Source of the DNA: Prevotella sp.
Lineage (GTDB): Bacteria; Bacteroidota; Bacteroidia; Bacteroidales; Bacteroidaceae
Length of the DNA stretch: 34,620 nt
Direction of reading: 5' to 3'
Assembly: GCA_017449025.1 (NCBI GenBank)
Contig: JAFSKJ010000083.1
Location: 1 to 34,620, forward strand
The position numbers and the translations under genes are program-made. How positions within the stretch are numbered: position 1 is the stretch's first letter; every line of letters begins with the position of its first letter. The notes beneath the pieces were generated by a model. That model was not told the origin of the DNA. It did no database searches and saw only the letters and a program-made list of their open reading frames with translations. Of this stretch, positions 7,892 to 15,129 are shown piece by piece.

Positions 7892-8180
7892 GATAATGCC
7901 TTTTACACAACGGGATTGTCTTCCATCACTCTTCCAAATTCAATAAAAAACATTGACGAAGGTGACGATTCCTGGCACGGTGACAACTATCGCTGACGGA
8001 GCCTTCGCAGGCTGCGAGAACCTACGGTCCATCTATGTATTTGCTCCAGAGCCTATCAGCCTGACAGCCACTGAGGTGCGCAACATGGTGACCAGAGCAG
8101 ACGGGAATGTGCCCTCGCAGTTCGAGGGCGTCGACTTCAATAGTGCCGAGTTTCACTTCGAGACTTGGCACTATTTATTC
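7892..8180 (+). pseudogene. Eroded BspA-like LRR gene, remnant 1
   Basis: One frame encodes DNAFYTTGLSSITLPNSIKNID, two joined pieces of a leucine-rich repeat (7892-7957). At about 7955 the frame shifts to one encoding VTIPGTVTTIADGAFAG and then TRADGNVPSQFEG, nearly identical to residues in the intact BspA-like genes at 10122 and 13663. The coding match stops at the 'DF' codons and runs in frame into the hairpin at 8140-8174. It is therefore an internally deleted, frameshifted and truncated copy with neither start nor tail. Confidence 0.8.
8140..8174 (+). repeat. Hairpin repeat, copy 1
   Basis: Twelve-base arms ATAGTGCCGAGT and ACTTGGCACTAT (one G-T pair) surround the loop TTCACTTCGAG. The same hairpin, with a perfect stem, recurs at 9009-9043 and 12518-12552. 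Here the DNA downstream is unrelated to that of the other copies. It could act as a terminator for the BspA remnant, though no U-tract follows. Confidence 0.85.
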
Positions 8181-8924: not shown

Positions 8925-9055
8925 CCTTCAAACAATAGCCGCCAATGCCTTCAAGGGTAACCAGAGCAGACGGGAATGTTCCATCGCAGTTCGAGGGTAT
9001 CGACTTCAATAGTGCCAAGTTTCACTTCGAGACTTGGCACTATTATGACATCTAA
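8925..9055 (+). pseudogene. Eroded BspA-like LRR gene, remnant 2
   Basis: The DNA encodes IAANAFKGN, a typical BspA repeat piece. After the overlap GGTAACCAG it jumps, in another frame, to TRADGNVPSQFEGIDF and then to NSAKFHFETWHYYDI ending at TAA (9053-9055). The first part therefore looks deleted against the second, possibly through the short overlap, which resembles GGTGACCAG in remnant 1. A 36-codon ORF (ATG at 8947) survives across the join, but there is no evidence that it is translated. Confidence 0.7.
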
Positions 9056-9154
9056 AACACCTTGCACAAACATCTTTTCGCTCAATAATATCATATTTTC
9101 TCCTCTTTTCGTTGGGATTTAGAAGAAAATGTGTATATTTGCACCGTTAAATAA
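9006..9154 (+). repeat. 149-bp hairpin-promoter module, copy A (drives PIN module 2)
   Basis: It is identical to 12515-12663 at all but two of 149 positions, without gaps. It starts with the hairpin ATAGTGCCAAGT/ACTTGGCACTAT (9009-9020 with 9032-9043, loop TTCACTTCGAG). It ends with a promoter: TTG at 9112-9114, 19 bp, TATATTTG at 9134-9141. The antitoxin ATG lies 22 bp after the -7 box. The downstream gene family differs between the two copies. Confidence 0.92.
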
Positions 9155-9162
9155 TAAAAGAG

Positions 9163-9408
9163 ATGAATATGATAACAACATCACAACACACTTCTTTAAG
9201 TATAGGCCAACTCCATATTTTGGAGATGATGAATAGATGCAGAACAGAAGAGTCTTTGAGGCAACTAAAAAAGCTTCTGTTTGATTTCTATTCCAAGGAG
9301 GCTGTTGCTGAGGCAGACCGTTTATGGGAAGCAGGAGTAATTAGTGAAAGTAAAATTGAGGAGTGGGGCCAGGAACACATGCGCACTCCCTATGTTCATG
9401 CAAAATGA
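9163..9408 (+). CDS. Antitoxin-like partner of PIN toxin (module 2)
   Basis: This is an 81-residue helical protein related to the module 1 antitoxin-like protein (shared QL.IL.MM and DRLWEAG.I patterns). Its stop codon overlaps the toxin start in the sequence ATGA (9405-9408), so the two are translationally coupled. A second Met codon at 9169 is an alternative start. It is transcribed from the promoter in the 149-bp repeat. Antitoxin function is inferred from pairing with the PIN gene. Confidence 0.72.
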   Translation: MNMITTSQHTSLSIGQLHILEMMNRCRTEESLRQLKKLLFDFYSKEAVAEADRLWEAGVISESKIEEWGQEHMRTPYVHAK

Positions 9409-9815
9409 GACGAATTGTCTTGGATACCAACTGCCTGCTGATGTGCGTTTCCCCCAAGAGCCCGTACCACAAAGTGTGGACGGAGTTTGTGGGAGGAAAG
9501 GTGGTATGGTGTGTCACAACAGAAATTCTCTCTGAGTACATGGAAATATTGGAGCAGAAAACCAATGCATGGTTTGCCGAGGTCATCGTAAACGCGATAG
9601 TCAATAACGAGAACACCATTAGGGTTTCCCCTTCGTTCTTTTTCAATTTGATTCAAGCAGACCCTGATGACAATAAGTTTGTTGACTGTGCTATCTGCGG
9701 GAATGCTGAATACATCGTCTCTAACGATTCACATTTTCGTGTTCTCAACGATATAGAATGGCCCAAGCTTCAACTTGTCACCATACAGGAATATATCAAA
9801 GAGATAGACAAATAA
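9405..9815 (+). CDS. PIN-domain ribonuclease toxin (module 2)
   Basis: This is a 136-residue protein starting at MRRIVLDTNCLLMCV; the 9405 ATG overlaps the antitoxin stop by 4 bp, the usual type II coupling. PIN acidic residues are present: Asp in VLDTN, Glu in TEILSEY, Asp in ADPDDNKFVDCAI and Asp in NDSHF. ADPDDNKFVDCAI is identical to module 1, showing the same toxin family with otherwise diverged sequence. The catalytic set looks intact. Expected role: metal-dependent RNase held in check by its upstream partner. Confidence 0.85.
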   Translation: MRRIVLDTNCLLMCVSPKSPYHKVWTEFVGGKVVWCVTTEILSEYMEILEQKTNAWFAEVIVNAIVNNENTIRVSPSFFFNLIQADPDDNKFVDCAICGNAEYIVSNDSHFRVLNDIEWPKLQLVTIQEYIKEIDK

Positions 9816-9838: not shown

Positions 9839-10083
9839 ATTGCCTATGACATAGCAAGGACAAAAGACATATAGATAAGAAGCGTTAGCTTTATATTCTT
9901 GCTTCGGACAAATCGCCAAATTTAATGAAGCTTCAAGAGTAAAAGTTATTAACGCTCACGTGTTCGCACGTGGGCTTTTACTCGTATATGAAGCAATGGT
10001 GTTTGGCGATACCTTCCGAAGCGTAGACGAAGTAATCAGTCCACGTTTCTTTTTCTGTCTTCTCACAAGCATTTGGACTGTAG
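9839..10083 (+). ncRNA. Structured leader element, copy A (upstream of first BspA gene)
   Basis: It is homologous along its length to 13374-13619. Nested pairings in order are GCTTCGG/CCGAAGC (9901-9907 with 10016-10022), ATCGCCAAA/TTTGGCGAT (9912-9920 with 10002-10010), GCTTCA/TGAAGC (9930-9935 with 9989-9994), GAGTAAAAG/CTTTTACTC (9937-9945 with 9975-9983) and a cap CACGTG-TTCG-CACGTG (9957-9972). A separate stem CAGTCCA/TGGACTG (10037-10043 with 10074-10080) follows, and a dyad around TATGACATA lies at the start. Covariation with copy B supports the fold. It ends 38 bp before the BspA ATG. No TAnnTTTG box is obvious between it and the gene. It may be a 5' UTR regulator, a separate RNA, or a folded recombination site. 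Confidence 0.72.
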
Positions 10084-10121
10084 TCAAACATTAATTGTAA
10101 ACATTAAAAACAAAAACAACA

Positions 10122-12494
10122 ATGAGACAAAGGTATTTACACATTTTCTCGCTGCTCGTAGCCTTGTTCGTATCAGGTATTGCTTCTGCAGCCAGTTATT
10201 TTAAGGATACACAGACAAATATTACGTATTCTTTCTATATCAACGATTCTGGCGTTGGTGAGGCTCAAGTCTGTAGGTCTGGTGGCGTCAATGGCGATGT
10301 CACCATCCTTGAGAGCTTCATAATCAACAATGTAAAATATACTGTGACCAGTATGCAAGAAAAAGCGTTCTACTATAACAATGACATCACCTCGGTCGTC
10401 CTTCCAAACACCATTAAGGGAATTCCCGAACAGGCCTTCTATAACTGTAAGAATCTGAAGTCGATAGCTTGGCCAACCCAGTTGACTAGCATTGGTAAGC
10501 AGGCTTTCTATTTTACTGCCATCGACTCGCTCTTCTTGCCTGACCAGGTGGAGACAATATCCGCAGAAGCTTTTTCTACCTGTATAAATCTCAAGTATGT
10601 GGAGCTGCCCAAGTCGTTGAAATCCATTGGAGAAAAGGCATTTTACAATGGTGGCAATATTCACCGAGTAATATCGTACATAGAGGAGCCGTTTGAGATA
10701 CCCGAGAACGTGTTTTTCGTCAACACATCCGATGGTGAGGTGTTCGGCTGGGGCGATCTTTATGTCCCCGTAGGCACAAAGGATAAATATCTTGCCACCA
10801 CAGGCTGGAACAGCTTCGCGACTATAATAGAGATGGAACCGGAGACTCCAGAGCCGGAATATAAAGACGGTGACAGGTTCACGGCTAAGACTCCGGAAGG
10901 AGTAGAAATGTCCTTCATGGTTATCTCTGCCGCTGACAAGACATGCATGACAGTCTCCCGTGACAGTAGGTATCCTATGGTGTGCATTGATAGTAATACA
11001 ACAGGAACGGTAACCATTCCTTCCGAGGTAAACGGCTTTAAGGTGGTACAGATAGGAGAGGAGACGTTCAGTTCGCTGGATGGCCTGACTGCTATCAACA
11101 TCTCCGATGGCATCACAACCATAGACAGACTCGCGATAGGATACTGTGAAAACATCACATCAATATATATTCCAGCTTCTGTCACAAGTATTGGTGAAGG
11201 AAACTTCTCCTCATGTCATAATCTCAATAGCATTGTTGTAGATAGTAAAAATCCAGTTTACGACTCACGCAACAACTGCAACGCTGTCATCGAGACGGCA
11301 ACCAAGAAGGTCGTGGCTGGCTGTAATACTACAGTTCTCTTCGACGGGATAACCGCTATTGGAGCAAGAGCATTCATTGGTGTACTGGCACTTTCTACGT
11401 TTAATTTGCCTTCAACGGTGACAAGCATTGAAGACTTAGGTTTTTATGGATGCAGTAATCTACAGTCAGTCGTAGTTCCCAAGACGGTCACAAGTATGGG
11501 TGTCGCACCATTTGAAGCTTGTAATGGTCTGACTTCTCTTTCTGTTGAGGCAGGAAACCCTAACTATGACTCGCGTGAAAACTGCAATGCCATTATTGAG
11601 ACCAAAACAGAAAAGTTAATCAATGCATGTAATGTGTCTTTTATACCAGAAGGAATTAAGACCATAGGCATAGGCGCGTTCTATGGTTTAAGAAACATCG
11701 AGGTGATTACAATTCCCAAAAGTGTAGAATCCATAGAAGGCGCCGCATTTTATGGGTGCCCAAACCTGAAGATTGTCAAGTCTTTCATTGAAGAACCATT
11801 TGTGCCAGGCTACGCCTGCTTTTGGAAAATATCAAAGGATGCGACGCTCTATGTTCCCATCGGAACGAAAGCCAAATACGAGGCAACCGACGGCTGGAAG
11901 GATTTCAAGAACATCGTGGAGATGGCCCCATACGACGTGCTGGATGACAATACGGTGGCGGCGCACTTCCTTGAGCCGGATGAGGATGGGAAGTTGGAGA
12001 TTCCTGCGACGGTGGAGATAGACGGCAAAACGTACACCGTGACGGCGATTGCGGCTGGTGCCTTCAAGGATAACAAGGAACTGACAGAGGTGACGATTCC
12101 TGGCACGGTGACAACTATCGGTGACGGAGCCTTTGCGGGCTGCGAGAACCTGCGGGCTATTTATGTCTATGCTCCAGAGCCTATCAGCCTGACAGCCACT
12201 GAGGTGCGCAACATGGTGAAGCGTGCGGCGGAGAACGTTCCGTCGCAGTTCGAGGGCATCGACTTCGAGGCCTGCACGCTCTACGTCCCTGTCGGCTCCG
12301 AGCAGAAGTACCGTGAGGCAGAGGGCTGGAAGCTGTTTACACACATTGTCGGTGTGGAAAACCCAGCAGGCATCGCCACCATCCATACGGAGAAGAATGG
12401 CTATAGTGCTGTCTACAACCTCTCCGGCCAGCGACTCGCAGCTCCGCAGAAAGGCCTCAACATCATCGGAGGCAAAAAGGTCGTTGTGCGCTAA
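10122..12494 (+). CDS. BspA-like secreted leucine-rich repeat protein
   Basis: This is a 790-residue exported protein. A signal peptide (residues 1-23, ending IASA) is followed by a beta-rich start. Many BspA/TpLRR (LRR_5) units then appear, seen as 'F..C..L.s..iP..v..Ig..aF' (e.g. QAFYNCKNLKSIAWPTQLTSIGKQAF, AFYGCPNLKIV). Blocks ending 'LYVPVGTKDKYLATTGW' recur three times. The C-terminus carries NLSGQRLAAPQKGLNIIGGKKVVVR-type residues, the Prevotella tail that resembles a type IX secretion signal. BspA proteins typically mediate adhesion to host proteins or other cells. The last ~190 residues are nearly identical to those of the protein at 13663, suggesting gene conversion. Promoter not evident; the structured leader lies just upstream. 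Confidence 0.88.
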   Translation: MRQRYLHIFSLLVALFVSGIASAASYFKDTQTNITYSFYINDSGVGEAQVCRSGGVNGDVTILESFIINNVKYTVTSMQEKAFYYNNDITSVVLPNTIKGIPEQAFYNCKNLKSIAWPTQLTSIGKQAFYFTAIDSLFLPDQVETISAEAFSTCINLKYVELPKSLKSIGEKAFYNGGNIHRVISYIEEPFEIPENVFFVNTSDGEVFGWGDLYVPVGTKDKYLATTGWNSFATIIEMEPETPEPEYKDGDRFTAKTPEGVEMSFMVISAADKTCMTVSRDSRYPMVCIDSNTTGTVTIPSEVNGFKVVQIGEETFSSLDGLTAINISDGITTIDRLAIGYCENITSIYIPASVTSIGEGNFSSCHNLNSIVVDSKNPVYDSRNNCNAVIETATKKVVAGCNTTVLFDGITAIGARAFIGVLALSTFNLPSTVTSIEDLGFYGCSNLQSVVVPKTVTSMGVAPFEACNGLTSLSVEAGNPNYDSRENCNAIIETKTEKLINACNVSFIPEGIKTIGIGAFYGLRNIEVITIPKSVESIEGAAFYGCPNLKIVKSFIEEPFVPGYACFWKISKDATLYVPIGTKAKYEATDGWKDFKNIVEMAPYDVLDDNTVAAHFLEPDEDGKLEIPATVEIDGKTYTVTAIAAGAFKDNKELTEVTIPGTVTTIGDGAFAGCENLRAIYVYAPEPISLTATEVRNMVKRAAENVPSQFEGIDFEACTLYVPVGSEQKYREAEGWKLFTHIVGVENPAGIATIHTEKNGYSAVYNLSGQRLAAPQKGLNIIGGKKVVVR

Positions 12495-12514
12495 ACGTTC
12501 TCACTTTTATACTA

Positions 12515-12663
12515 TCAATAGTGCCAAGTTTCACTTCGAGACTTGGCACTATTATGACATCTAAAACACCTTGCACAAACATCTTTTCGCCCAATAATAT
12601 CATATTTTCTTCTCTTTTCGTTGGGATTTAGAAGAAAATGTGTATATTTGCACCGTTAAATAA
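12515..12663 (+). repeat. 149-bp hairpin-promoter module, copy B (drives mntA-hepT)
   Basis: Differs from 9006-9154 at two positions only. Hairpin arms lie at 12518-12529 and 12541-12552; promoter TTG at 12621-12623, 19 bp, TATATTTG at 12643-12650. The mntA ATG lies 23 bp after the -7 box. Upstream it begins 20 bp after the BspA stop codon, so the hairpin may also end BspA transcription. Confidence 0.92.
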
Positions 12664-12672
12664 AATTCGTTT

Positions 12673-12966
12673 ATGCTTGACAGGACACAGACCATAGAAA
12701 AGTTGAAGAGCACCCGCCAGTACCTTGGCGAGCACTATGGTGTGCACTCCATGACGCTCTTCGGCTCGCTGGCACGCAACGAACAGCGAGAAGACAGCGA
12801 TGTGGACATTTGTGTAGAGATGGTACCCAACTTGTTTAACCGCGCTGGCGTGAAAATCTATTTGCAGGAATTACTTGGATGTGACGTCGATGTGGTGCGA
12901 ATGCGCGAGAACATGAACCCCTTGTTTAAACAGCAAATTTTGAAATATGGAATTCGAGTCTACTGA
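12673..12966 (+). CDS. mntA: MntA-type nucleotidyltransferase antitoxin
   Basis: This is a 97-residue minimal nucleotidyltransferase. The motif GSLARNEQREDSDVD fits GSx10DxD exactly, with the two metal-binding Asp residues present, and a third Asp is likely in GCDVDVVRM. In studied MntA/HepT pairs the antitoxin adds AMP groups from ATP to a Tyr of the HEPN toxin and so silences it. The gene overlaps the HEPN gene by 20 bp, showing tight coupling. It is transcribed from the second copy of the 149-bp promoter module, not from a promoter typical of its own family. Confidence 0.9.
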   Translation: MLDRTQTIEKLKSTRQYLGEHYGVHSMTLFGSLARNEQREDSDVDICVEMVPNLFNRAGVKIYLQELLGCDVDVVRMRENMNPLFKQQILKYGIRVY

Positions 12967-13348
12967 GAAACTTCAGATGGTCTATGAGACCCTAAAGAAT
13001 ATTGAGACGGCCATCACCCGACTACAGGAGCGGACAGTGCAGATCCATACTGCCAACGATTTTCTTCTTTCACCCTTTGGCATGGAGAAACTCGATGCTG
13101 CCTGCATGGTGCTCATTGCTTTGGGCGAAGCTGTAAAAACGCTCGACAAACTCACCAACAAGGAATTGCTTCCTACATACCCCGCTGTAGAATGGAAGAA
13201 AGTCATGGGATCAAGAGACATTATGGCCCACCACTATTTTGAGGTTGATGCCGATGAAGTGTTCAACATCGTGAAGAACGACCTGGAACCCTTGAAGAAA
13301 GCTATCGACTATTTCAAGGAAGAACTGTTTGGAGACGACAATCAATAA
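12947..13348 (+). CDS. hepT: HepT-type HEPN ribonuclease toxin
   Basis: This is a 133-residue all-helical HEPN protein. The sequence RDIMAHHY satisfies the RX4HXY active-site motif, with Arg and His for RNA cleavage and the Tyr that MntA modifies. Length is normal (about 110-140). The upstream overlap with the nucleotidyltransferase gene makes the pair a canonical type VII toxin-antitoxin module. The active site looks intact, so the toxin should be functional if released. The structured element B begins 25 bp after its stop codon. Confidence 0.9.
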   Translation: MEFESTEKLQMVYETLKNIETAITRLQERTVQIHTANDFLLSPFGMEKLDAACMVLIALGEAVKTLDKLTNKELLPTYPAVEWKKVMGSRDIMAHHYFEVDADEVFNIVKNDLEPLKKAIDYFKEELFGDDNQ

Positions 13349-13373
13349 CAAATAATGTATAACCCCTTAAAGG

Positions 13374-13619
13374 ATTGCGTATGACATAGCAAAGACAAAA
13401 GACATATAGGAATTGAAGCGTCCGCTTGAATCTTGCTTTCAGAAATTTCGCCAAAATTTAAAAGCAACCAAGAGTAAAAGCACGGATGCTCACGCTGGCC
13501 GGCGTGGGCTTTTACTCGGATATGGTTGTTAAGGTGTTTGGCGATACCGCAGGAGACGTAGACGAAGTAATCAGTCCACGTTTTCTTTTTCTGTCTTCTC
13601 ACAAGCATTTGGACTGTAG
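13374..13619 (+). ncRNA. Structured leader element, copy B (upstream of second BspA gene)
   Basis: Same element as 9839-10083. Its pairings are TCGCCAAA/TTTGGCGA (13448-13455 with 13537-13544), GCAACCA/TGGTTGT (13464-13470 with 13523-13529), GAGTAAAAG/CTTTTACTC (13472-13480 with 13509-13517), a cap CACGCT-GGCC-GGCGTG (13491-13506) and CAGTCCA/TGGACTG (13572-13578 with 13610-13616). Relative to copy A, four consecutive pairs in the second stem and two in the cap have changed while still pairing. The outermost GCTTCGG/CCGAAGC stem of copy A is poorly kept here. It ends 43 bp before the BspA ATG. Confidence 0.72.
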
Positions 13620-13662: not shown

Positions 13663-15129
13663 ATGATGAGAAGATTTTACGCATTGCTTCCTTTGCTTGC
13701 AACCCTATTGATACCAACAGCAGCATGGGCAGACGTATGGCAAGACCCAGAGACAAAAGTTAATTATGAGTATACACCTGGACAGAGTGAGGCCGGTGTG
13801 AAAAAGGGGACAGGTTGGGATAGTAATGATCAAGCCGGATGCCCAGAGGCATCAGGTGACATCGCTATATTATCCTCTTTTACTATAGGCGGAGAAACCT
13901 ATACTGTTACCGAGATTAGAAATTACGCCTTTGCACATTGTAACAATTTGACTTCCGTTAAAATCCCCAATACTATCAACTTTATCGGAATAGGTGCTTT
14001 TGCAGAATGCTGGTCTCTGCATTCAATAAACATTCCAGAATCTGTTAAATATTTATGTCCCTGTGCTTTCATGAGGTGTGCTCTCACATCAATAGACATT
14101 CCTGGCAGCGTAGAAAGTATTGGTTACCAAGCATTTCTTCAGTGCTCAAGACTTGAAACCGTTACCATTGGTGAAGGTGTCACTACTATTCGTGGAACTA
14201 ATGTGTCAGATCATTTAGATGGTGGCGCATTCTCGTGGTGTTTCAATTTGAAAAAGGTAACATTGCCCGAATCTCTAAAAGAAATTGGCACGGAGACTTT
14301 TGGAGGGTGCAATAAATTGTCTGCAATAGAGCTTCCCAAGAATCTGGAGAAGATTGGGAAGAAGGCATTTTATGGCACAGGGAATGAATGTGAATGGTTT
14401 GATGTGTACTCCCATATCGAAGAGCCGTTTGCCCTTAATGAGGTGTTTGATGGAAATGGAAAGAATCCAGATGAAAACACCCTCTACGTCCCAGCTGGCA
14501 CAAAAGCAAAGTATGAGGCTACTGAGGGTTGGAAGGAGTTCAAGAATATTGTGGAGATGACACCTTACGATGTGCTGGATGGCAACACGGTGGCGGCGCA
14601 CTTCCTTGGGCCGGACGAGGACGGGAAAGTAGAGATTCCTGCGACGGTGGAGATTGACGGTAGGACGTACACCGTGACGGAGATTGCGGCTGGTGCCTTC
14701 AAGGATAATAAGGAACTGACGGAGGTGACGATTCCCGGCACGGTGACGACCATCGGCGACGGAGCCTTTGCGGGCTGCGAGAACCTGCGGGCTATCTATG
14801 TGCTGGCTCCAGACCCCATCAGCCTGACTGCTGCCGAAGCACGCAGCATGGTGACCAGAGCAGATGGGAATGTGCCTTCGCAGTTCGAGGGCATCGACTT
14901 TGACGCCTGCACGCTCTACGTCCCTGTCGGCTCCGAGCAGAAATACCGCGAGGCCGAGGGCTGGAAGCTGTTTACCCACATTGTCGGTGTGGAAGACCCG
15001 GCTGGCATTGCCACCATCCATACGGAGAAGAATGGCTATAGTGCTGTCTACAACCTCTCCGGCCAGCGGCTTGCAGCTCCACAGAAAGGCCTCAACATCA
15101 TCGGAGGCAAAAAGGTTGCTGTACGCTAA
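13663..15129 (+). CDS. BspA-like secreted leucine-rich repeat protein
   Basis: This is a 488-residue exported protein. The signal peptide (1-23) ends in AAWA. A short beta-rich start (KVNYEYTPG...) and about eight BspA-type LRR units follow (SYAF-like blocks such as AFAHCNNLTSVKIPNTINFIG, with consensus 'F..C..L..v.iP'). A 'TLYVPAGTKAKYEATEGWKEF' type block comes next. The last ~190 residues are almost the same as in the 790-residue neighbour, including the sorting-like tail. The N-terminal LRR parts of the two differ, so variation is concentrated in the presumed ligand-binding region. Probable surface adhesin. It follows the mntA-hepT module and structured element B. Confidence 0.88.
   Translation: MMRRFYALLPLLATLLIPTAAWADVWQDPETKVNYEYTPGQSEAGVKKGTGWDSNDQAGCPEASGDIAILSSFTIGGETYTVTEIRNYAFAHCNNLTSVKIPNTINFIGIGAFAECWSLHSINIPESVKYLCPCAFMRCALTSIDIPGSVESIGYQAFLQCSRLETVTIGEGVTTIRGTNVSDHLDGGAFSWCFNLKKVTLPESLKEIGTETFGGCNKLSAIELPKNLEKIGKKAFYGTGNECEWFDVYSHIEEPFALNEVFDGNGKNPDENTLYVPAGTKAKYEATEGWKEFKNIVEMTPYDVLDGNTVAAHFLGPDEDGKVEIPATVEIDGRTYTVTEIAAGAFKDNKELTEVTIPGTVTTIGDGAFAGCENLRAIYVLAPDPISLTAAEARSMVTRADGNVPSQFEGIDFDACTLYVPVGSEQKYREAEGWKLFTHIVGVEDPAGIATIHTEKNGYSAVYNLSGQRLAAPQKGLNIIGGKKVAVR

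Follow-up and report, generated by a model that had tools for sequence, protein, structure and literature searches.

Bacteroidota are dominant in the rumen and the gut, and we know of few RNA regulators in this phylum that are understood. The closest known systems are Flavo-1 (RF01705) and the other Bacteroidetes motifs of Weinberg 2010, which are structured RNA candidates of the phylum (PMC2864571), the structured 5' leaders without Rfam matches of Flavobacterium psychrophilum (PMC9723704), the tetQ leader of CTnDOT in Bacteroides, which works by translational attenuation (PMC5418344), the E. coli upstream open reading frame (ORF) toiL of topAI-yjhQ, a translation-stress sensor (PMC12121999), and riboswitches in which aptamer and expression platform covary together (PMC13273304). 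Here we analyse an element that occurs twice in a stretch of Prevotella sp. DNA (assembly GCA_017449025.1, contig JAFSKJ010000083.1, positions 1-34,620 of the forward strand), the whole 34,620 nucleotides of which we call the window. A first-pass annotation had taken the two copies for a structured RNA, possibly the leader of adhesin genes, and reading the sequence located both where it had placed them (copy A, 9839-10083; copy B, 13374-13619). We found that copies A and B are members of a large RNA family not listed in Rfam, whose copies lie in front of start codons and maintain two mutually exclusive sets of covarying helices, a design that may well serve transcription attenuation.

An RNA family across the Bacteroidota

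A blastn search with copy A recovered four good copies in its own genome and, at E<=1e-4, matches in 77 of 200 genomes of the same genus, and an exact-pattern scan of public genome contigs yielded at least 116 stretches, by title mostly from metagenome assemblies (many from ruminants), with labels that include Prevotella, Prevotellaceae, Bacteroidaceae, Bacteroidales, Muribaculaceae, Salinivirgaceae and others. Covariance-model searches, suggested as a check in the first-pass annotation, returned further homologs with covariation across the Bacteroidota: model R1, built from 105 copies, matched 46 of 395 phylum genomes at E<=0.001, and model R2, built from 57 diverse copies, matched 60 of 395 at E<=1e-5, covering 32 of 170 genera. 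R2 also recovered 15 copies from the own genome, and 28 of 40 genomes of the genus had between 1 and 15 copies each. These genome counts include the own genome and are lower bounds, as at most six candidates per genome were scored in the phylum search and at most three in the genus blastn.

At gathering score, neither the window nor 20 loci that carry divergent copies matched any Rfam 15 family, Flavo-1 and the 2010 Bacteroidetes motifs included. Weak scans gave a best E of 6.4 for copy A, below gathering, and of 0.024 for locus L164 (rli48, on the element's strand), the latter with 24.3 bits compared to a gathering score of 100. A known Rfam family is thus ruled out for the window, copy A, L164 and the 20 divergent loci, in line with the earlier remark that no named family is known to have this shape. 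Plasmids, phages and (by exact pattern) viral contigs contained no matches at the settings used, which at those settings also rules out a phage or plasmid element. The open-access literature searched does not describe the element, which is not proof of absence.

The copy sets behind the counts differ. The 145 copies collected reduce to 141, and four of these are cases of one element coming from two collections, leaving 137 distinct close copies, to which the counts of upstream ORFs, promoters and downstream ORFs refer; stop-codon usage, median start distance and the close test of helix H_G (see below) refer to the 141. Alignment A2 holds 105 of the 141 (101 distinct rows), the other 36 having failed the start anchor. 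Within the first set of 33 loci (L001-L004 and L009-L037), L022 (cut short) and L023, L032 and L035 (anchor missed or misplaced) were excluded from the upstream-ORF counts made on the 141. The alignments of neighbours keep repeats (A4, 56 rows, 54 distinct; A5, 30 rows, 29 distinct; A6, 119 of 122 rows, 117 distinct), and a hold-out of 20 copies lies outside every model. Since the pattern of the public-contig scan fixed the letters CGTAGAC/GTCCACG, and hence the 3' ends of helices P1, P2 and H_T, in the copies that it retrieved, the close set is a poor test of these parts.

Two covarying folds

The first fold is a rod made of P1 (AAGC with the tail), P2, P3, P4, P5 and the apical P6. In the close set (105 copies, 101 distinct), 93.7% of the rod cells pair, compared to 83.6% when shuffled and 35-49% when slid, and double changes occur in 543 cells compared to 154±12 in shuffled alignments, at 25 of 51 pairs. 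The phylum-wide set of 57 copies, the alignment of which was fitted to the rod, has 542 such cells compared to 153±12, at 45 of 47 pairs and in all helices. This excess upholds the earlier claim of a structured RNA under selection on its fold, which had been drawn from the two window copies. On the alignment, the pairs beside GAGTAAAAG/CTTTTACTC are indeed exchanged between copy A and copy B (G-C to C-G, C-G to A-T, T-A to A-T and T-A to C-G), and in the cap T-A becomes C-G, G-C becomes T-G and the loop TTCG becomes GGCC. Two stems had been called invariant, which holds between copies A and B but not for the family: CGCCAAA/TTTGGCG varies in other members (TCGGCAAA/TTTGCCGA, or TTGGGGAA with TCCCCAA), and the 3' strand of AGTCCA/TGGACT is present in only 54 of the 105 close copies. 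Single-sequence folding could not have decided the question, since copy B reached only z -1.4, with 9 of 100 shuffles equally good, compared to z -5.1 relative to shuffled sequences for copy A.

The tetranucleotide that follows AAGC pairs with the one that precedes P6 in 387 of 420 cells compared to 326±6 (105 rows, including 4 repeats); GTCC is matched by GGAT in 34 of 34 cases, GTTA mostly by TAAT, TGAT or TAAC, and rarer variants (GTTT, ATCT) are matched as well. One pair of P6 is a T-G wobble in 100 of 101 rows, an observation that fits RNA better than a DNA cruciform. For helix P7 (AGTCCA/TGGACT), close copies scored 13.36 compared to 13.04±0.19, inside the range of 20 shuffles, and distant copies 13.4 compared to 12.2±0.45; in a focused test of 54 copies the adjoining pair reached 40 (shuffled mean 30.6, maximum 39 among 2000 shuffles) and the next pair 27 (27.8 when shuffled). 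The many copies per genome might suggest a mobile or repeat-derived sequence whose folding is unused by the cell, but all rod helices show double changes in the phylum-wide set, which contradicts it, as does the constant gene context described below, and we give this explanation practically no credence.

Several strands of the rod have a second complementary partner. For the P6 3' strand it is the tail just 5' of the U-rich tract (helix H_T), and for the P2 5' strand it is the beginning of P5 (X2); the loop pairing can lengthen to about seven pairs (X1). X1, X2 and H_T compete with the rod, and together they give a pair of simple hairpins with U-rich sequence behind the second. In 34 distant copies, H_T scored 20.7 compared to 18.3±0.39 and X2 15.5 compared to 11.4±0.45, with none of 300 shuffles as high, and X1 scored 11.2 compared to 10.3±0.29, with 1 of 300 as high. 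In the hold-out, which includes fully rewritten examples, none of 500 shuffles did as well for X2, H_T or X1. A scan of 276 window pairs in the 34 distant copies, in which no helix was named, had a median z of 0.05, and the 20 pairs above z 4 include rod helices, X2 and the H_T stem, the windows being taken from the rod-fitted alignment. Two exclusive helices share one strand, as the P6 3' strand pairs either with the P6 5' strand or with the tail, and both covary in distant and hold-out copies. The nested stems of the first-pass annotation do covary, but they represent one of two folds.

Proposed leader position and attenuation, and the upstream ORF

TAnnTTTG, which we take to be the Bacteroidetes -7 promoter element, precedes the upstream ORF by 12-75 nt in 47 of 110 close copies, compared to 186 of 5800 random windows. 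Among 46 distinct distant copies, 34 have it no more than 75 nt ahead of the model start, 24 of these at a distance of 14-23 nt, compared to 122 of 2300 controls. Owing to this spacing, many transcripts should start at the element. An ORF starts in the same direction within 135 nt downstream of 118 of the 137 distinct close copies (5 of the other 19 lie at contig ends), with the start codon a median of 65 nt from the element. Promoter distance and the place before the start codon support the proposed 5' leader position. They also speak to whether the element is a trans-acting small RNA that runs from promoter to terminator and lies upstream of genes by coincidence: the promoter motif at the very start of many distant copies and the terminator-like end would suit such an RNA, but the regular ORF starts in the same direction and the several copies per genome before unrelated genes would not, and we regard it as quite improbable.

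By a crude home-made signal-peptide rule, 98 of the 118 downstream proteins look secreted compared to 146 of 514 other ORFs, and by eye several hold-out neighbours are without a signal peptide. A Pfam scan of 119 downstream proteins revealed BspA-type LRR_5 in 34 and Dockerin_1 in 10. A BspA-specific leader is ruled out because the majority of the downstream proteins come from other families; control of the genes behind it, adhesin genes among them, is a putative role of the element. Seven selected downstream genes of divergent copies comprise four TonB-receptor-like genes with CarbopepD_reg, two sigma-70-like genes and one reverse transcriptase. At L190:95-1051 (-), a reverse transcriptase gene (RVT_1, E 6e-21) follows a distant copy with 449 nt between them.

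The motif G[CT]NNATG precedes the structure in 116 of the 137 distinct close copies, and in 110 of these 116 an in-frame stop follows within 4 codons (0 to 3 codons between), compared to 75 and 30 of 116 in the other frames, the count for frame +1 being raised because ATGA contains TGA. All three stop codons are used. In a few rows the count used another ATG (L012 and L122; L113 and L151 by eye). An ATA-for-ATG subgroup consists of L065, L082, L083, L085, L093 and L152, several of which by eye have an in-frame stop soon after. Short ORFs also precede some divergent copies by eye (L158, L159 and L163); L195 and L198, which are divergent copies of the own genome, are preceded by an ORF of 8 codons that terminates at the element.

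Comparison of these sequences leads us to think it probable, if well short of certain, that the element acts as a transcription attenuator: it would belong to the 5' leader of the mRNA of the gene behind it and adopt one or the other of two folds that exclude each other. In the rod (P2-P6, closed by P1) the 5' and 3' halves would pair with each other, which would also sequester the beginning of the U-rich tract and permit read-through. In the second fold each half would be self-paired. The 5' half would form a hairpin with X1 enclosing X2, and the 3' half one in which the P6 3' strand pairs with the tail ahead of U-rich sequence; the latter would act as an intrinsic terminator, so that transcription would end ahead of the gene whenever something keeps the 5' half in its own hairpin. 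Since energies favour the rod, read-through would be the expected default and switching off would need something that holds the 5' half. In Bacteroidales a likely input would be ribosome loading or termination at the upstream ORF of 1-4 codons, the start-and-stop character of which makes ribosome activity a candidate signal. More tentatively, and with more doubt than belief, we envisage an ancient phylum-wide two-state RNA switch that would place many unrelated surface, nutrient-uptake and regulatory genes of a single genome under one cellular signal, and to which Bacteroidales would have added the start-and-stop upstream ORF with the ribosome as sensor.

Several observations weigh against attenuation. 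P1 is the weakest helix, with no double changes in close copies and 1-2 cells per pair in the phylum set. H_T in close copies scored 21.96 compared to 21.73±0.14, with 15 of 300 shuffles as high, a weak excess that reflects the near-constancy of both strands. H_G (GGU/ACC), a putative inner hairpin of the terminator, gave 192/228 compared to 177±3 and 399/420 compared to 390±1 and failed in the hold-out, where 80 of 500 shuffles were equally good, and the local alternative CGTAGAC/GTCCACG, rejected as a terminator, has its pairs present and shows no covarying changes. Some of the window pairs above z 4 match no named helix. Some distant copies have moderate U-rich tracts; at least 5 T among the final 8 nt occur in 23 of 34 distant and 13 of 20 hold-out copies. 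The upstream-ORF motif is missing from 21 of the 137 close copies (by eye, 7 have ATG and a stop within 4 codons, 6 have ATA and 8 have neither), and the systematic count covers the close copies. Simple energies, calculated without pseudoknots, place the rod below the H_T fold in 100 of 105 copies, by a median of 10 kcal/mol (range -6.5 to 24), which speaks against spontaneous bistability and implies that the second fold would need to be kinetic or induced. The far greater stability of the rod, together with the leader position, the adjoining mini upstream ORF and the short median distance to the start codon, would also suit a leader RNA with an effect on translation or on the stability of the mRNA, rod and pseudoknot shielding the 5' end or gating ribosome entry and the U-rich tract being incidental. 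This reading leaves unexplained that the P6 3' strand covaries with the tail before the U-rich tract, and we consider it unlikely, though a serious contender to the attenuator.

Toxin-antitoxin neighbours and known systems

Features of the window are collected in Table 1. TAnnTTTG is absent from the 110 nt before copy A and before copy B, and the window element and BspA gene are probably co-transcribed with a toxin-antitoxin pair. A 149-nt repeat, 99% identical between 9006-9154 and 12515-12663, comprises a hairpin and TATATTTG and lies upstream of both toxin-antitoxin pairs; judged from these sequences, the pair looks exchangeable between common flanks. The partner ORF of the PIN_3 gene (9163-9408) has no Pfam match. 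The hairpin AATAGTGCC.../...GGCACTATT occurs at 8139-8175, 9008-9044 and 12517-12553, marking the ends of one of the BspA genes (10122-12494) and of two BspA-like remnants. A 136-nt perfect inverted repeat at the contig ends (5-140 and 34485-34620) is probably an assembly-graph end.

Table 1. Positions of the leader elements, their parts and neighbouring genes in the window
Position	Strand	Feature
9134..9141	+	TATATTTG, promoter-like element before PIN gene pair
9363..9815	+	PIN_3 toxin-like gene, 30 nt before copy A upstream ORF
9846..9854	+	Copy A mini upstream ORF, Met-Thr-stop, conserved GCCTATG motif
9866..10053	+	Structured domain of copy A, matching model R1 in full at 196.6 bits
9880..9887	+	Copy A AAGC (P1, with tail 10045-10048, rod fold) and GTTA (pairs with 9950-9953)
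	+	GTTA with AGC (9880..9887, copy A), which in the second fold give the longer helix X1
9896..9901	+	Copy A TTCTTG, part of P2 5' strand (rod) and of X2 with CAAGAG 9934-9939 (second fold)
9954..9975	+	Copy A apical hairpin P6, GCTCACGTG/CACGTGGGC; 9968-9976 alternatively pairs with 10038-10046 (H_T)
10038..10053	+	Copy A tail AGTCCACGTTTCTTTT, 3' strand of terminator-like hairpin H_T and U-rich tract
10074..10079	+	Copy A TGGACT, complements tail AGTCCA (helix P7, modest support)
10122..12494	+	BspA-type LRR gene behind copy A, 790 aa
12643..12650	+	TATATTTG, promoter-like element before MNT/HepT pair
12673..13348	+	Nucleotidyltransferase (12673-12966) and HepT-like gene (12947-13348), 32 nt before copy B upstream ORF
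13381..13389	+	Mini upstream ORF of copy B (Met-Thr-stop)
13401..13588	+	Structured domain of copy B, scoring 177.4 bits with R1
13663..15129	+	BspA-type LRR gene, 488 aa, downstream of copy B

Among the 25 of 35 families listed for the 56 ORFs (54 distinct) directly upstream of promoter-less copies, 9 are HepT-like, 6 nucleotidyltransferase, 5 DUF2442, 3 ParE and 2 PIN_3. For the 30 ORFs upstream of promoter-bearing copies, the 25 of 39 families listed include two ORFs with DUF2442 and a single AAA_21, annotated as a putative AbiEii toxin, and no HepT, nucleotidyltransferase, ParE or PIN. Promoter-less copies are often found behind a toxin-antitoxin pair (HepT, MNT, PIN, ParE, YoeB, DUF2442) and promoter-bearing ones rarely, a comparison drawn between these two groups of copies. 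Such neighbours, and the fact that the window copies follow two different toxin-antitoxin pairs with nearly identical upstream flanks, would fit an attC-like recombination site, folded as single-stranded DNA, that moves toxin-antitoxin or surface-protein cassettes, which had been the main alternative of the first-pass annotation. This alternative appears weakened by the promoter spacing and the orientation towards the gene, by strand-specific wobble pairs such as the T-G in P6, by the two exclusive covarying folds and by the lack of matches among plasmids, phages and (by exact pattern) viral contigs, and we hold it to be very improbable.

As a putative leader RNA with up to 15 copies per genome, placed before BspA-type and other surface proteins, the element would be a directly testable control point. 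Like the F. psychrophilum leaders, it is an unnamed conserved 5' element of the phylum; the genes named for those leaders differ (pheA, hisG, alaS and others), a contrast at the level of genes. The tetQ leader is likewise a Bacteroidota leader, and attenuation is proposed here as well; tetQ is a resistance gene, and the likeness is one of described mode of action. The tetQ leader peptide is said to be very short. With toiL the element shares an upstream ORF linked to toxin-antitoxin genes, but those of toiL lie downstream and are regulated, whereas the pairs described here lie upstream. Unlike transcriptional riboswitches, the element has no Rfam match and no ligand or binding core assigned to it, its unrelated downstream genes point to no ligand, and in Bacteroidales it carries an upstream ORF. 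Like them and like transcription attenuators, it has a probable 5' leader position, two exclusive folds under selection, a terminator-like 3' hairpin with a U-rich tail and several unrelated genes per genome, and it offers a rare case in which not only the folded but also the terminator-like state shows in the covariation, both readable from sequence.

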